Assembly (NCBI GenBank): GCA_902574705.1
Contig: CACGOM010000001.1
Span: 1-64,000, forward strand
From: an uncultured Pelagibacteraceae bacterium
GTDB taxonomy: Bacteria > Pseudomonadota > Alphaproteobacteria > Pelagibacterales > Pelagibacteraceae
Reading direction: 5' to 3'
DNA length: 64,000 bases
The translations under genes were made by a program, and so were the position numbers. Each line of letters begins with the position of its first letter. Positions within the stretch are counted from its first letter, which is position 1. The notes beneath the pieces were generated by a model. The model made no database searches, had not been told where the DNA came from, and worked only from the letters and a program-made list of their open reading frames with translations. Positions 55,670-63,396 of the stretch are shown piece after piece.

Positions 55670-56863
55670 TTAGCTTTTTATATGCAGTTCTTTTGGTAGA
55701 TTACAAAATAATTCAGATCCAGTCTCAGTTACTCTCACAGACTCTGAGGCCTCTACACCCCACTCACCAAACTGCATTACAGCAATCATGTGAAAGCAAA
55801 TATTCTTTTTTAAAACTGTTTTGTCTCCTTTAGAAATATTTAATGTGTGCTCTCCCCAGTCTGGTGGATAACCAATTCCAATTGAATAACCAGTTCTAGA
55901 TTTTTTCTCAATTCCATATTTATCTAAAACTTTCCAAAAAGCTTGTGCCACATCATCAGCTGTATTTCCCGGTTTAGTTACATCAATACCTGCATGAAGT
56001 GCTTCTATAGTTTTTTTCATTGTATCTATTTTTTTTTGATCGGGCTTCCCAAGAAGGACGGTTCTAGCCATAGGACAGTGATATCTCCTATAAACTCCAG
56101 ATAATTCAATAATAGTTGCTTCTCCTTCAACGAACTTATTATCGCTCCATGTTAAATGAGATGCAGATGTGCCTTTTCCAGTTGGCAAGAGTGGAACTAT
56201 TGCAGAATAGTCTCCACCATATTCATTTGTTCCTTTTATTAATGTGCCTGCAATCTCTGAAACCAAATCATTTTGTCTAATACCAGGTTTAATAAATTCA
56301 AAAGCTCTATTCATTCCAAGTTCTGTAATCTTACTTGCTTTCTTCATTAAATTTATTTCTGCGTCTGATTTAACTACTCTTACCCAGTTAACTAATCTTT
56401 CGCTGTCAATTAGTTTTGCGTTAGGTAAACCATCTAATAATTTTTTATATGAGTATGCTGTAAAATAATGAGCATCCATCTCTAATCCAATATTTAAATT
56501 TTCCCATTTTCTTTTCTTAATCAATTCTACAATTGCATCGTAAGGATGTGTTGGCCATGTATGAATATATTTTTCATCATAAGCAATTATATTCTCATGT
56601 TTGATATAACAGTTAATGTATGCGCCTCCTACATCTTGAGCTCTAACAAATAATAATGGCTCATCAGCATCTACATGTACTATTGCGCACTGAGCATAAT
56701 AAAATGACCAAGCATCATAGCCTGTAATATAATTTATATTTGGAGTGTCTTGTGAAATTAAAAGGTCAATGCCTTTTTCTTGCATAGATTTTTTAATTGT
56801 ATCTAGCCTCTGTTTATATTCTTCTTTTGAAAATAACATTTTAATTAGAGAATAATTTTCCAA
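55670..56863 (-). CDS. M24 peptidase family, ectoine hydrolase (DoeA/EutD)-like
   Basis: INYITGYDAWSFYYAQC, GGDYSAIVPLLPTGKGTSASHLTW, RYHCPMARTV, DSRTGY-like SRTGYSIGIGYPPDWGE. Confidence 0.75.
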   Translation of the reverse strand: MENYSLIKMLFSKEEYKQRLDTIKKSMQEKGIDLLISQDTPNINYITGYDAWSFYYAQCAIVHVDADEPLLFVRAQDVGGAYINCYIKHENIIAYDEKYIHTWPTHPYDAIVELIKKRKWENLNIGLEMDAHYFTAYSYKKLLDGLPNAKLIDSERLVNWVRVVKSDAEINLMKKASKITELGMNRAFEFIKPGIRQNDLVSEIAGTLIKGTNEYGGDYSAIVPLLPTGKGTSASHLTWSDNKFVEGEATIIELSGVYRRYHCPMARTVLLGKPDQKKIDTMKKTIEALHAGIDVTKPGNTADDVAQAFWKVLDKYGIEKKSRTGYSIGIGYPPDWGEHTLNISKGDKTVLKKNICFHMIAVMQFGEWGVEASESVRVTETGSELFCNLPKELHIKS

Positions 56864-57584
56864 ATCCAGAAACAGATTTATTCATTCCTATTTTTTCTAA
56901 AGTTTCCCAAATTAATGCTTGGTTGCTGGATAAAACCATTTTACCGTGTTTTTTCTCTAACCTGTCTATTATTGCCAAAGCTGGAAGAGCTGTACAAGAA
57001 ATAAATAAAGCATCAGCATCATTTAGTTTAATATTAGATAAAACTTCATACAAATATTCTGGATCAACTTTTCCAATATCTATATCTGATTCTATATCAA
57101 AATAGGAATTGGATGTTATTTCAAATCCTTCTTTTTTAAAAAATTCAATCACTTCATCATTTAATTTTTTTGGGTACGGAGTAAATAAATAAATTTTTTT
57201 TATATCTAATTTTTTTAATGCATTTACTGCCGCTGTACTTGGAGTTGTTACACTTGTATTTGGTTTTGCTTTTTTAATTTTTTCTTCAATTGAAGTATAT
57301 CCAGCTGCTATAGTTCCTGAAGTACATCCATACGCAACACAGTCTATTTTTTCATCAGGCAATATATCTTTTGTAACTTCAGTAATTTTCTCAGACATTT
57401 TAATTAGATTTTCAGATGTTAGGGGATTAAAGGTTTCTATTCTATTTACAAAAAAATCAATCTTTTTATCTTTAATAACGCTAATGAAATCTTTTTCGAT
57501 CATATAATCGCTTGAAAGTGCGATAAGACCTATTTTTGGATTTAATTCCTTTAAAAACTTAGGTGGTATTTTTTTTGTTTCCAT
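56841..57584 (-). CDS. Asp/Glu racemase superfamily (EutA / maleate isomerase-like)
   Basis: Two cysteine motifs VAYGCTSGTIAAGY and FISCTALPALAIID. Confidence 0.78.
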   Translation of the reverse strand: METKKIPPKFLKELNPKIGLIALSSDYMIEKDFISVIKDKKIDFFVNRIETFNPLTSENLIKMSEKITEVTKDILPDEKIDCVAYGCTSGTIAAGYTSIEEKIKKAKPNTSVTTPSTAAVNALKKLDIKKIYLFTPYPKKLNDEVIEFFKKEGFEITSNSYFDIESDIDIGKVDPEYLYEVLSNIKLNDADALFISCTALPALAIIDRLEKKHGKMVLSSNQALIWETLEKIGMNKSVSGFGKLFSN

Positions 57585-57629
57585 ATTTTTTTAAATATAT
57601 CCTAAAGTTATATTTTGTGATATAAATAA

Positions 57630-57720
57630 CTCAAGCGATACATAACTCGTCGTTTTAACTTCACAAGCTAAACGAAAGTGGGATCGGTCGTCTTTAAATT
57701 AGTTTTTAAAGGAGGCTTAA
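57630..57720 (+). promoter_or_regulatory. candidate structured 5' leader (possible riboswitch) upstream of the LLM monooxygenase operon
   Basis: TATAAAT -10-like at about 57621; TCGTTT/AAACGA stem (57650-55 / 57670-75) with CTT/AAG inner stem; loop CAC can pair with GTG 57678-80; CTTTAAA/TTTAAAG hairpin overlapping AGGAGG Shine-Dalgarno. Confidence 0.5.
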
Positions 57721-58890
57721 ATGAAATTTGGTTATTTTTGTAATACCACTAATTGGACACATAAACCCTATTATCAATTACTAGATGAAACAAAAGAGAT
57801 CACAGAGTATTGTGATAAAAATAATTGGAACTCTATTTGGTTCACAGAACATCACTTTAATCATGAAGGAATGGAGTCATGTACAAATCCTTTAATGCTA
57901 GGTGCTGACGCTGCTGCAAGAACAAAAAATATTAGAATTGGTCAAGCTGCTAACGTAATAACATTTCATAATCCAATAAGATTAGCTGAAGATATAGCAA
58001 CACTTGATCAGCTTTCTAAGGGAAGAGTTGAGGTTGGAGTAGCAAGAGGAATTTATGGAAGAGAAGCAATAAATTTAAACAAAGAAGCCGATTTAAAAGA
58101 CCAGGCAAAAAATTTTAGACTCTTTGCTGAAACATTGGAAGTCCTGAAAAAGGCTTGGACAGAAAAGTTTTTTGATCATCAAGGAGAATTTTATACATAT
58201 CCTTCTCCAGATTATGTTTGGCAACATGATATGAGTCCTCCAAGTGAAGAATTTATGAATATGGAGAATAATACAATGAAAAAAATAAGTGTTGTTCCAA
58301 AACCATATCAAAATCCACACCCACCAATACATCAAGTTGTTGATGGAATAAGATCTATTGAGTGGGCTGCAGAAAATAATATTAATGTCATTATGTGGAT
58401 ACCAACTGTTAAAGCATTAAAAATAAAATTTGAAGCATACAAAAATAAAAGATCTGAGGTTACTAAAAAAAATATTCCGTTAGGTGAAGGCGTTTCGCTA
58501 GTAAGAGATATGTTTGTGGCTGACACAATGGAAGAGGCAAAAGAAAAAGCTGGAGAACATATGGTAAATTATATGAGATGGGTTTGTCATTGGAGAGGTC
58601 TAGGAAATCATATGGATCCAGGAGAGGAACTTCCAGAAACAAAAGGCAAACTTGATTTATTAAATTATGACTTCCTGCATAAAAGAAATATGCTTTTTGG
58701 AACACCTGAATATGTAATTGATAAAATTCATGAACTTAAGTCTGAATTAAATCTTCAAAATTTGCAAGTTTGGTCAAACTTTCCCGGTGTTAAACATAAA
58801 GACTGTATGAAAAGTATAAAACTTTTTACAGAAAAAGTAATACCTCATTTTAAGGATGATTTAGATACAGAAGTAAAAAAAGTTTCGTGA
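57721..58890 (+). CDS. LLM-class flavin-dependent monooxygenase
   Basis: WFTEHHFNHEG, LSKGRVEVGVARGIYGREA luciferase-like motifs. Confidence 0.9.
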   Translation: MKFGYFCNTTNWTHKPYYQLLDETKEITEYCDKNNWNSIWFTEHHFNHEGMESCTNPLMLGADAAARTKNIRIGQAANVITFHNPIRLAEDIATLDQLSKGRVEVGVARGIYGREAINLNKEADLKDQAKNFRLFAETLEVLKKAWTEKFFDHQGEFYTYPSPDYVWQHDMSPPSEEFMNMENNTMKKISVVPKPYQNPHPPIHQVVDGIRSIEWAAENNINVIMWIPTVKALKIKFEAYKNKRSEVTKKNIPLGEGVSLVRDMFVADTMEEAKEKAGEHMVNYMRWVCHWRGLGNHMDPGEELPETKGKLDLLNYDFLHKRNMLFGTPEYVIDKIHELKSELNLQNLQVWSNFPGVKHKDCMKSIKLFTEKVIPHFKDDLDTEVKKVS

Positions 58891-60581
58891 TCAAATCTCA
58901 AAAATTAACAGGCGGCCAAGCAGCTGTTAAATCATTAAAAAAAGAACATGTTAAACATGTATTTGGATTGATTGGATCGGCAACAATGGAAATGTTTGAC
59001 GCTCTTTACCATGAAAAAAAAATAAAATTTATTGGGGTTAGAGATGAAAGAACTGGAACACATATGGCTGATGGATATGCGCGCGCTTCGAACGAACCAG
59101 GAATTATTATTGCTGGTCAAAACGGACCTGGAGCAACAAATTTAGTAACAGGACTTGCTCAAGCTAAGGCTGCTTTTTCCCCAGTTGTATCTATAGCTGG
59201 TTTATATTCTACTAAAGATAAAATGGAAGATGCTTTTCAAGGACTTGATCAACAATCTTTGTTTGCTCCAGTTACAAAAAAAACCTTCACAGTAAAAAAA
59301 ACTAGCAAGATTTCATCTGCTTTAAGTGAGGCATTTAGATATGCAATGTCTCCAAGAAGAGGTCCTGTAACTGTTAACTTGCCAAGAAATATTTTAGCGA
59401 ATAAATCTCAATTTAAGATTGATCAAAATAAAAAATCATACAAAAGCAATTATAATATAAAAGCAAAACCTAAATTTATAAATAACGTTATAAATTTGCT
59501 TAAAAAAAATAAAAAAATTACTTTAGTTGTTGGTGGAGGAATAAAATATAATTCAAGTTATAAAGTAATAACTCAACTTGCAGAATATTTATATATCCCA
59601 ATAGTAACTGCTGCAGGCCACGGTGATGCCATACCTTTTGATCATAAACTAAATGCTGGTCAAATGGGCCCAAGGGGAAATCCTATTGCATCTAAGATTG
59701 TTAAAGAAGCAGACTTAATATTAGCAATTGGTACAAGATTAGGATTTAATTCAACTTTTTATTCATTCGATAATATAAATAAAAATGCAAAAATTGTTCA
59801 GATTGAACTAGAAAAAAAAATGTTAGGCAGATATTTTCCGATTACATATGGGGCTTGTGCTGATGCAGCAACAGCAACAGATCAAATACTTAGAGTAATC
59901 AAAGCTAAAAAAATTAAGCTAGACACAAAAAAATGGACTGATTTATTTATAAAAAATAGAAGAAATTTTTTAATTCAAAGAGATCAAATTAAATCAAAAA
60001 ATTTTCCTATTCAGCCAAAAGGTTTATTCAAAGAATTAAGAAAAGTAATTCCAAAAAATTCTGCAATAACTTTAGATGCTGGAACTTTATGTCTTCAAGC
60101 TACAGATGCTTTAAAATATGATAATCCCCCTTCTCTATTTACTCCTCTAGATTTTGGTCTTGTAGGATTTTCTTTTGCATGTGGTTTAGGTGTTAAATTA
60201 GCTAAACCAAAAAAAACCGTTATTAGTTTAATGGGCGATGGTGGTTTTGGTATGACAATATCTGAATTAAGCACTGCTGTTGAACATAAAATTAATACAA
60301 TAACTGTAGTTATGAATAATAAAAGTTGGGGGGCTGAAAAGGCTTATCAAAAAGATTTTTTTGGTAGAAGATATCTTGGGGCGGATATAATTAGTCCACC
60401 ATTTGATAAAGTTGCAGAATTATATGGAGCAAAAGGATTTAAAGTAAAAAAATTGTCACAAATCAAATCAGTATTCAAAAAAGCTTTAAAAATTAAAAAA
60501 CCTGTAGTTATTGATATTGATGTAGATCCTAAAGCGCTATACAGTTTTAGAAGGGATAGTTTTAAACATAGATCAAAATAA
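58887..60581 (+). CDS. thiamine pyrophosphate-dependent enzyme (acetolactate synthase-like)
   Basis: RDERTGTHMADGYARAS, GDGGFGMTISELSTAVEHKINTITVVMNNKSWG (GDG..NN TPP motif). Confidence 0.9.
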   Translation: MIKSQKLTGGQAAVKSLKKEHVKHVFGLIGSATMEMFDALYHEKKIKFIGVRDERTGTHMADGYARASNEPGIIIAGQNGPGATNLVTGLAQAKAAFSPVVSIAGLYSTKDKMEDAFQGLDQQSLFAPVTKKTFTVKKTSKISSALSEAFRYAMSPRRGPVTVNLPRNILANKSQFKIDQNKKSYKSNYNIKAKPKFINNVINLLKKNKKITLVVGGGIKYNSSYKVITQLAEYLYIPIVTAAGHGDAIPFDHKLNAGQMGPRGNPIASKIVKEADLILAIGTRLGFNSTFYSFDNINKNAKIVQIELEKKMLGRYFPITYGACADAATATDQILRVIKAKKIKLDTKKWTDLFIKNRRNFLIQRDQIKSKNFPIQPKGLFKELRKVIPKNSAITLDAGTLCLQATDALKYDNPPSLFTPLDFGLVGFSFACGLGVKLAKPKKTVISLMGDGGFGMTISELSTAVEHKINTITVVMNNKSWGAEKAYQKDFFGRRYLGADIISPPFDKVAELYGAKGFKVKKLSQIKSVFKKALKIKKPVVIDIDVDPKALYSFRRDSFKHRSK

Positions 60582-61165
60582 TGAAATTAGAATTAAGAAA
60601 ATTTGTAAAATTTGTAGATAAAACATTTATTGAAGGTGGAAAAGAAGCAAAAAATCCTGTTTTATTAGTTTCTGTTGCTGCTGTAATTAAAAACCCTTGG
60701 GCAGGAAAAGGTTTTGTTGAAAACCTAAAACCAGAAATATTAGAGTTAGCACCAAAACTTGGAGATATACTAGTTCCAGAATTAATTAAAGAAATCGGAT
60801 CTGGAGATAAAATTTTAGCATACGGTAAATCTGCAATGGTTGGATTAAATGGAGAAATAGAACATGCTTCAGCATTTATTCATACACTAAGATTTGGAAA
60901 TAAATTTAGAGATGCTGTTGGTGGAACAGCTTACTTGAGTTTTACAAACACTAGAGGGCCAGCAGGTTCTAAAATCTCAATACCTATGATGCATAAAACT
61001 GATGCAGGTCTTAGACCATTTTACTTAACACATGAGTTTACAATTCATGACGCCCCAAATGAAGATGAGATTGTTGTTGCTATTGGGGGAGCACCAACAG
61101 GAAGAGCTCATGCAAGAACCGGGGACAGATATCAAGATATGAAGGAAATGGGAATTGATAAGTAG
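60581..61165 (+). CDS. amino acid synthesis family protein (DUF1185)
   Basis: KNPWAGKGFVENL, GKSAMVGLNGEIEHASAFIHTLRFGNKFRDAVGG pattern recognised as DUF1185. Confidence 0.75.
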   Translation: MKLELRKFVKFVDKTFIEGGKEAKNPVLLVSVAAVIKNPWAGKGFVENLKPEILELAPKLGDILVPELIKEIGSGDKILAYGKSAMVGLNGEIEHASAFIHTLRFGNKFRDAVGGTAYLSFTNTRGPAGSKISIPMMHKTDAGLRPFYLTHEFTIHDAPNEDEIVVAIGGAPTGRAHARTGDRYQDMKEMGIDK

Positions 61166-61922
61166 CTTTGATTCAAAAAAAACTTTTTACCAACTAAACA
61201 CCAAAAAAGATATACCAATAATATTTATTCATGGTGTTGGATTAAACCACTCAATGTGGGAACCACAAGTCAATGCATTTGATAATACTGTATTAACTTA
61301 TGATATTTTAGGACATGGAAATACACCTTTGATAAAAGAAAATATTACTTTTGATGATTTTAGCATTCAGCTCATTCACCTTGTGGACGAATTAGATATC
61401 AAAAAATTTCATTTAGTAGGTTTTTCTATCGGTTCATTAATAGCTAGAAATTTTGCTTGTAATTATAACAACAGATTGGAGTCTTTAACACTCTTATGTT
61501 CAGTATTTGAAAGATCAAAAGTTCAACAACAAACTGTTAATGATAGATTTGAGTTATCTAAAAAAAGCAGAACCCTTTCAAAACAAGCATTAAATAGATG
61601 GTTTTCTGATAAGTATTTAAACAATAATCCAAACATTTATCAAAAAATTTCGAATATTTTAGACAAAAATGATATTAAAAATTTCCTTAAAGTATATGAA
61701 TTGTTTGTACAACATAAAGATATAGAAGAATTTCATAAAATAAATTCTAAAACTTTGGTAATTACTGGAGAAGGTGATATTGGATCAACGCCTGAAATGT
61801 CTAAAAAATTAAGTAATGTAATTAAAAACTCTATACTTAAAATAGTTCCAGGAAAACATCTTTGTAGTATTGAATGTCCAGATGATGTAAATAATGAAAT
61901 AAGAAAATTAATTAATGGCTGA
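61155..61922 (+). CDS. alpha/beta hydrolase
   Basis: FIHGVGLNHSMWEPQ, LVGFSIGSLIARNFA nucleophile elbow, GKHLCSIECPDDV. Confidence 0.85.
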   Translation: MISSFDSKKTFYQLNTKKDIPIIFIHGVGLNHSMWEPQVNAFDNTVLTYDILGHGNTPLIKENITFDDFSIQLIHLVDELDIKKFHLVGFSIGSLIARNFACNYNNRLESLTLLCSVFERSKVQQQTVNDRFELSKKSRTLSKQALNRWFSDKYLNNNPNIYQKISNILDKNDIKNFLKVYELFVQHKDIEEFHKINSKTLVITGEGDIGSTPEMSKKLSNVIKNSILKIVPGKHLCSIECPDDVNNEIRKLING

Positions 61923-63396
61923 TTTAAAACAATATAAAATGTTCATTAACGGAGAATGGATTGACTCTGAGTCTAAAAAAAAATTTGAAACTTTAAATCC
62001 AGAAAATAATAAACCATGGGCTGTAGTTCCAGAAGCAAGCGCTAAAGATGTTGATAAAGCAGTTAAATCAGCACAAAAAGCTTTTGAAGGAGAATGGTCT
62101 AAAATATTACCTAGAGAAAGAGCTAAATATTTAAGAGCTATCGGTAGCAAACTTAGAGAGAATGCTGAGCTTTTAGGTAAAGTTGAAACAGTTGATACAG
62201 GTAAACTTTACAGAGAAACATATAAACAAGCTCATTATATTGCTGAGTACTATGACTACTACGCAGGACTTGCAGATAAAATTGAAGGCACAGTTCTTCC
62301 AATTGATAAACCAAATATTCAAGCTATTACAACTAGAATACCAATTGGAGTAATTGCTGCAATCGTTCCATGGAATTCTCAAATGTTTTTAACTGCAACT
62401 AAACTTGCTCCAGCTCTTGCAATGGGAAATACTATTGTAATCAAAGCATCAGAACTTGCGCCAGCAACTATGTTTGAGTTTGCAAAATTAATTGAAGAAA
62501 CAGGAATTCCGAAAGGAGTAGTAAATGTTATTACGGGTTTTGGTGATCCATGCGGTAAGGCTTTAACAACTCACAATTTAGTTGAAAAGGTTGCATTCAC
62601 AGGTGGTCCTGAAACAGCAAGGCATATAATAAGAAATTCTGCAGAAAATTTATCAGAGGTTAGTTTGGAACTTGGTGGAAAAAGTCCAGTTGCAGTATTC
62701 AACGATGCTCACCAGGAAAATGCAGTTAACGGAATTACTGCTGGAATTTTTGGTGCGTCTGGACAAAGTTGTATTGCTGGTTCAAGGTTGTATTTACAAA
62801 AAGAAATTTATAATGAATTTTTAGATAAACTTACAGCTAGAGCAGAAAAAATAAAAATAGGAGCTCCAATGGATACAGATACAGAAATGGGACCATTAAG
62901 TAATTTTAAACAATTAGAAATTATTGAAAAAAATATAAAATTAACTGTAGAGCAAGGTGGAAAAATTAAATGTGGTGGCAAAAGACATTCATATTCAAAT
63001 GAAGGATATTATTTTCCACCAACAATTATTGAATGTGATAATCATAATTTGCCGGCAGCTGAAAATGAATTATTTGGTCCAGTTTTATCAGTTATGAAAT
63101 TTGATACAGAAAAAGAAGTTATTGAAAAAATGAATGATAATCAGTTTGGATTATCTTCTGGAGTTTATACTAGTGATCTAGCCAGAGGATTAAGAGTTTC
63201 AAACGCAATTAGAGCAGGAATTACATTTGTTAATACTTATAGATTAATTTCACCATCAGCTCCATTTGGAGGGATTAAAGATAGTGGATATGGAAAAGAA
63301 GCAGGAATCGACTCAATTAAAGACTATACTAGAGTTAAAACTATTTGGTACTATACATCTGACGAACCAACACTTGATCCTTTTTCAATTAGATAG
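61915..63396 (+). CDS. aldehyde dehydrogenase family protein
   Basis: VSLELGGKSPVAVFND, GASGQSCIAGSRLY. Confidence 0.92.
   Translation: MADLKQYKMFINGEWIDSESKKKFETLNPENNKPWAVVPEASAKDVDKAVKSAQKAFEGEWSKILPRERAKYLRAIGSKLRENAELLGKVETVDTGKLYRETYKQAHYIAEYYDYYAGLADKIEGTVLPIDKPNIQAITTRIPIGVIAAIVPWNSQMFLTATKLAPALAMGNTIVIKASELAPATMFEFAKLIEETGIPKGVVNVITGFGDPCGKALTTHNLVEKVAFTGGPETARHIIRNSAENLSEVSLELGGKSPVAVFNDAHQENAVNGITAGIFGASGQSCIAGSRLYLQKEIYNEFLDKLTARAEKIKIGAPMDTDTEMGPLSNFKQLEIIEKNIKLTVEQGGKIKCGGKRHSYSNEGYYFPPTIIECDNHNLPAAENELFGPVLSVMKFDTEKEVIEKMNDNQFGLSSGVYTSDLARGLRVSNAIRAGITFVNTYRLISPSAPFGGIKDSGYGKEAGIDSIKDYTRVKTIWYYTSDEPTLDPFSIR

Follow-up and report, generated by a model that had tools for sequence, protein, structure and literature searches.

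In many ocean bacteria of the SAR11 group a folded RNA of about 60 nt precedes a single degradation operon, and the leader at 57630-57720 of the window (the whole 64,000-nt stretch of Pelagibacteraceae DNA analysed here) is, by comparison of sequences, real and conserved. The operon opens with the gene for an LLM-class flavin monooxygenase (luciferase-like monooxygenase), and the leader is probably a cis-acting, candidate riboswitch-type RNA that serves as a translational ON switch for it. The initial annotation had proposed a structured leader in a genome of the SAR11 type, as a candidate orphan riboswitch acting on translation, and had let the idea stand or fall with conservation and compensation of its stems upstream of orthologues; both were found there, and the proposal holds up as a candidate. 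The features are collected in Table 1.

Table 1. Features of the leader, its promoter region and the operon, with window coordinates
Feature	Position	Strand	Basis
-10-like promoter hexamer TATAAA	57621..57626	+	sequence; weakly conserved T/A-rich block in relatives
Conserved aptamer-like domain	57633..57694	+	covariance model match; 36/36 testable LLM orthologues
P1 5' strand AAGCGAU	57633..57639	+	pairs with 57687-57690 and 57692-57694; compensating cases L021, L067, L187, L189
Internal loop 5' side, ACAUAACUC-R	57640..57649	+	ACAUAACUC invariant in first 19 aligned sequences
P2 hairpin, variable length	57650..57675	+	stem 57650-57655 with 57670-57675; swap test, two-sided changes
Internal loop 3' side, AAGYGGGAUC-R	57676..57686	+	AAG and GGGAUC invariant in first 19 aligned sequences
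Switch strand GUCG-U-CUU (P1 3' strand and anti-Shine-Dalgarno strand)	57687..57694	+	two mutually exclusive pairings
Hairpin sequestering Shine-Dalgarno AGGAGG (57710-57715)	57687..57716	+	folds in nearly all leaders; arm-swap test
LLM-class flavin monooxygenase	57721..58890	+	PF00296, E 2.6e-44
Thiamine-diphosphate enzyme	58887..60581	+	PF02775, PF02776, PF00205; missing in several relatives
PF06684 protein (TgnF/HcdD family)	60581..61165	+	PF06684, E 7e-65; TgnF link PMC7913881
Alpha/beta hydrolase	61155..61922	+	PF00561
Aldehyde dehydrogenase	61915..63396	+	PF00171

The loci on which the comparison was built were found through the protein and not through the RNA motif. A search for the LLM protein in the window's own genome and those of relatives, 101 altogether, gave a true orthologue in 37 (a 38th match is a weak paralogue and was left out of the count); the orthologue of G063 was excluded from the leader count because its contig starts inside the LLM gene. 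Directly upstream of all 36 testable Pelagibacterales orthologues lies the leader element, judged by eye in L001-L030; in G062, G078, G080, G081, G085 and G087 the covariance model placed it where the distance to the gene is as expected. That model, the E-values of which are rough, matches the window at 57630-57694 with 72 bits and is positive in 137 of 398 Pelagibacterales genomes, normally as a single copy per genome; the window's own genome has one copy, even at E <= 10. The LLM protein of L025, which comes from another family, is about 57% identical to that of the window, yet AAGCGAUACAUAACUC is the same base for base. A pattern scan of named genomes added further members among the matches listed, mostly labelled Pelagibacteraceae or Pelagibacterales, with a few under other labels (the MAGs MarineAlpha5_Bin9, AG-916-I19 and MED641).

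Every listed member that could be judged has the LLM gene next, except L090 and the copies at L190 (5163-5222, a second copy in G418) and L185 (1796-1865, in G112), the latter two having no LLM gene behind them. No second target operon was found behind the leader in the members compared. L090 was considered as one and rejected, the next gene being the tail of an aldehyde dehydrogenase gene that follows an internal operon deletion; the element there lies near the 5' end of the locus, and the LLM gene is missing. All three of these copies look like deletion products or relics. Nothing credible was returned by the covariance model from 386 genomes drawn from Alphaproteobacteria, the matches of that search being weak and, as far as inspected, within or antisense to unrelated reading frames. 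Pattern matches outside SAR11 (Paenibacillus, Flavobacteriaceae and others) were rejected because they come without the flanking conserved bases and without an LLM gene behind, and none of the 19 pattern matches in viral contigs was accepted by the covariance model.

Transcription probably begins a few nucleotides ahead of P1, the closing helix, since a -10-like block lies upstream and strong conservation starts only at P1, just past that block. In the relatives compared, the T/A-rich -10-like block is weakly conserved and lies about 20-26 nt upstream of CATAACTC; the hexamer of the window (57621-57626) is slightly closer to it. A leader peptide was considered for the element and rejected, there being no conserved start codon in it: GTG at 57678 is replaced by GCG in 12 of the 107 leaders compared.

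Taken singly, the leader sequence of the window has an ordinary folding energy (z = -0.81; 38 of 200 shuffles fold as well), so that a comparison across leaders was needed, and 107 distinct leaders with an LLM start downstream were compared. Their consensus reads AAGCGAU-ACAUAACUC-R-[P2]-AAGYGGGAUC-R-RUCG-(U/A)-CUU. P1 joins AAGCGAU to GUCG-U-CUU, with 57691 bulged, and together with P2 it encloses a nearly invariant internal loop, the bases of which are far more constant than those of P2, where length and loop vary freely from leader to leader. (The 19 aligned sequences used for loop invariance in Table 1 were those found through the protein.) Among 78 distinct sequences 96.5% of the cells pair, changes on both sides occur at 7 of 11 pairs, and compensating changes fill 15 cells against 1.6 in shuffles, slid versions being far worse, with kinship ignored throughout; having been fitted to the structural model, this alignment is tilted in its favour. 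With 19 sequences aligned by MAFFT, two-sided changes were seen at 3 pairs (4 cells). In a strand-swap test, which needs no fitted alignment, 3' strands were exchanged between leaders and the duplex energy was recomputed; the result was 0/5000 for P2 and p = 0.024 for P1, again with kinship ignored. Strong conservation leaves P1 only moderately significant in this test, and for the same reason the case for the helix rests on individual variants: GAAGAC/GUUUUC in L021, GACGAU/GUCGUC in L067, AGCGAU/GUCGCU in L189, U-G to U-A changes in L016, L017 and L024, and CGU/GCG in L187, where one base pair has gone from both strands. At the base of P2, positions 57649/57679 are G/U in 81 leaders, A/U in 14, A/C in 11 and G/C in 1, and this near avoidance of a Watson-Crick G-C hints at a non-Watson-Crick, wobble-type contact.

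The fold drawn in the initial annotation was thus right in its P2 and its ribosome-site hairpin, while its closing helix, pseudoknot and inner hairpin were not borne out. Each of its motifs lies where it had been placed (TATAAAT 57621-57627, CGAT 57636-57639, TCGTTT 57650-57655, AAACGA 57670-57675, GTGGG 57678-57682, ATCG 57683-57686, CTTTAAA/TTTAAAG 57692-57711 and AGGAGG 57710-57715), and its TCGUUU/AAACGA stem is P2, with two-sided changes at 3 of the 4 counted pairs. The inner CUU/AAG hairpin is missing in most relatives, its CAC loop varying in length and sequence, and the H-type pseudoknot that was to join this loop to GUG is unconserved as the loop changes. A closing helix CGAU/AUCG was rejected because changes in its 5' strand are not followed by GGGAUC, and because an A at 57686, seen in 20 of 107 leaders, usually leaves CGAU unchanged; at most it may form in the OFF state, which is where it appears in the minimum-energy fold of the window's leader.

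The hairpin over the ribosome site pairs GUC and UCUUUAAA (57687-57689 and 57691-57698) with UUUAAAGG and GGC (57705-57712 and 57714-57716), and it folds in nearly all leaders. For 63 unique 3' parts the mean z is -2.6 against mononucleotide shuffles; when arms are exchanged between leaders the mean cost is 1.9 kcal/mol, and the real value was reached in 0 of 2000 shuffles. The two arms vary in a matched way, as GGUC/GGCU in most leaders and AAUC/GGUU in the L016 group; a 9-bp hairpin is present in L040 and in L114, and weak ones in L065, L092 and L138. Of 105 distinct leaders, 104 have the switch strand paired with downstream sequence in the computed free minimum-energy fold, and when P1 is enforced the mean computed accessibility of the ribosome site goes from 0.23 to 0.66, with a rise above 0.2 in 94 leaders. 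The window's own leader shows a smaller computed opening, 0.18 rising to 0.32 when all 7 bp of P1 are formed. In these models P1 and the ribosome-site hairpin are mutually exclusive pairings, which is the arrangement of an expression platform. On average the closed state is the more stable by 4.3 kcal/mol, a difference that a ligand would need to overcome.

The mechanism that we favour would run as follows. Without ligand, the switch strand GUCGUCUU would pair with the Shine-Dalgarno region and translation would be low; a small molecule that is available when the operon's enzymes are called for, probably the pathway's own substrate or one of its first intermediates, would bind the internal loop and stabilise P1; and the stabilised P1 would pull the switch strand from the ribosome site, so that the LLM operon would be translated more. 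As a riboswitch would be, the element is a conserved fold in what is presumably an mRNA 5' leader, and we count in favour of an ON riboswitch that its target is a single catabolic operon. A lone copy in each genome, with just one operon as its target, would also fit autoregulation, in which a protein, be it a regulator or an enzyme of the operon, binds the conserved RNA and controls translation with no metabolite aptamer involved, and protein-binding leaders do exist in SAR11 (the rpsB and rpsL motifs; PMC2704228). We hold this to be unlikely, however, as the target is catabolic, no candidate RNA-binding protein is present among the domains found, and the roughly 17 unpaired, nearly invariant bases on the two sides of the internal loop look more like a ligand pocket than like a simple site for a protein.

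The direction of the switch is unreadable from sequence, and nearly every leader takes the closed state as its minimum-energy fold, as would also be expected of an OFF switch, or of a ribosome-site hairpin that is a constitutive brake or a thermometer without ligand. A constitutive hairpin would nonetheless leave unexplained the invariant loop bases and the fact that P1 and the anti-Shine-Dalgarno pairing share one strand throughout the leaders, and an OFF switch is disfavoured because a P1 stabilised by ligand would open the ribosome site, so that we consider this group of readings improbable. Very hard to credit is the reading that the block serves as DNA, as a transcription factor's operator with incidental pairing. 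The block does adjoin the promoter, and P1 is conserved so strongly that few of its pairs vary, but RNA and not a DNA site is what fits the compensating changes (in P2, in single variants of P1 and in the ribosome-site hairpin), the free variation in length and loop of P2 and the two competing roles of one strand.

As for known RNAs, the aptamer-like core of the preferred ON switch is distinct and lies outside every Rfam 15 family. The window has no match in Rfam 15 at gathering thresholds; its leader at E <= 10, and three divergent members against Rfam 15, gave chance-level matches to unrelated families only, so that the Rfam scan proposed in the initial annotation found no family for the leader. 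An LLM-linked RNA motif is absent from the open-access literature searched, the surveys of 2009, 2019, 2021 and 2024 included, where it goes unmentioned; a description elsewhere could exist. SAM-V was found in 'Ca. Pelagibacter ubique' (PMC2704228), and both SAM-V and SAM-II are, like the LLM leader, compact leader RNAs near a start codon in marine or other alphaproteobacteria. Those two, however, are pseudoknots before methionine genes, whereas the LLM leader has no conserved pseudoknot, other conserved bases and a catabolic operon, and it matched neither Rfam model at E <= 10. It shares with translational ON riboswitches the use of one strand for both the closing helix of the aptamer and the anti-Shine-Dalgarno hairpin, and it differs from them in its core and in that its ligand is putative. 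The SAR11 motifs of Meyer et al. 2009 (rpsB, rpsL, ffh, rhtB, pntA, babIM and SAR11_0636; PMC2704228) are likewise conserved intergenic RNAs of the same order, but they have other genes and other described structures, and none is tied to an LLM gene (PMC2704228).

What the ligand might be can be approached from the operon. Since the thiamine-diphosphate enzyme gene has gone from the operon in L188, L191, L193, L197 and L198, the core, as judged from gene content, is LLM - PF06684 - hydrolase - aldehyde dehydrogenase. An EamA-type transporter gene follows, and then one for a Liv-type binding protein in relatives and apparently here too. The PF06684 family includes TgnF of the trigonelline pathway (PMC7913881), in which the ring is opened by TgnA/TgnB, a system argued to be unlikely to act on homarine (PMC8269262). 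On plasmids of Leisingera, Rhizobium and Acinetobacter venetianus (L221, L222 and L223) there is a recurring five-gene cassette in the order PF06684 - hydrolase - flavin reductase - LLM - aldehyde dehydrogenase; in Acinetobacter it comes with an NCS1 permease. The SAR11 operon and these tgn-like cassettes have LLM, aldehyde dehydrogenase, hydrolase and PF06684 genes together, and identities to the window are 55-58% for PF06684, 40-53% for the aldehyde dehydrogenase, 24-31% for the hydrolase and 24-30% for LLM. A flavin reductase, the TgnB partner, is not among the SAR11 operon genes, and given this difference and the divergence of the LLM protein, the SAR11 substrate may differ. (Plasmid-borne LLM relatives in Peribacillus and Sulfitobacter were set aside as distant and in other contexts.) Our leading guess for the ligand, drawn from the resemblance of the gene set to the tgn cassette, is a nitrogen heteroaromatic compound of the trigonelline kind or a breakdown product of one.

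The LLM orthologues of G647 and G662 have LysR and TetR genes nearby, and the covariance model, applied to the genomes of the class, did not find the leader RNA there; on this ground RNA may have replaced protein control in SAR11. It is a tentative but distinct possibility that the leader represents a new riboswitch class for a seawater nitrogen heteroaromatic (trigonelline, homarine, a relative or a ring-opened product), switching on the SAR11 ring-opening pathway in place of the LysR/TetR proteins that lie beside the same genes in some larger genomes. If true, a further ligand-sensing RNA class would name a compound that SAR11 cells detect and eat, and the question of which compound would become approachable with a 90-nt RNA and a short list of metabolites. 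Were the ligand a pyridinium betaine, this would be, to our knowledge, the first riboswitch for that chemistry, and the leader would be a marker of pyridinium betaine turnover in seawater.

Two neighbouring gene sets deserve mention. Flavin reductase and Rieske oxygenase genes (L211, 9004-10979) lie beside the LLM orthologue of G647, which suggests that this LLM protein is a two-component flavin monooxygenase. In the window, a divergent gene pair on the minus strand (55670-57584) is related to the ectoine utilisation proteins EutA and DoeA/EutD; it scores below the cut-offs of TIGR02990 (EutA, 209 vs 318 bits) and TIGR02993 (DoeA/EutD, 478 vs 613) and therefore probably acts on another compound. 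The same pair adjoins the LLM operon in several relatives as well.
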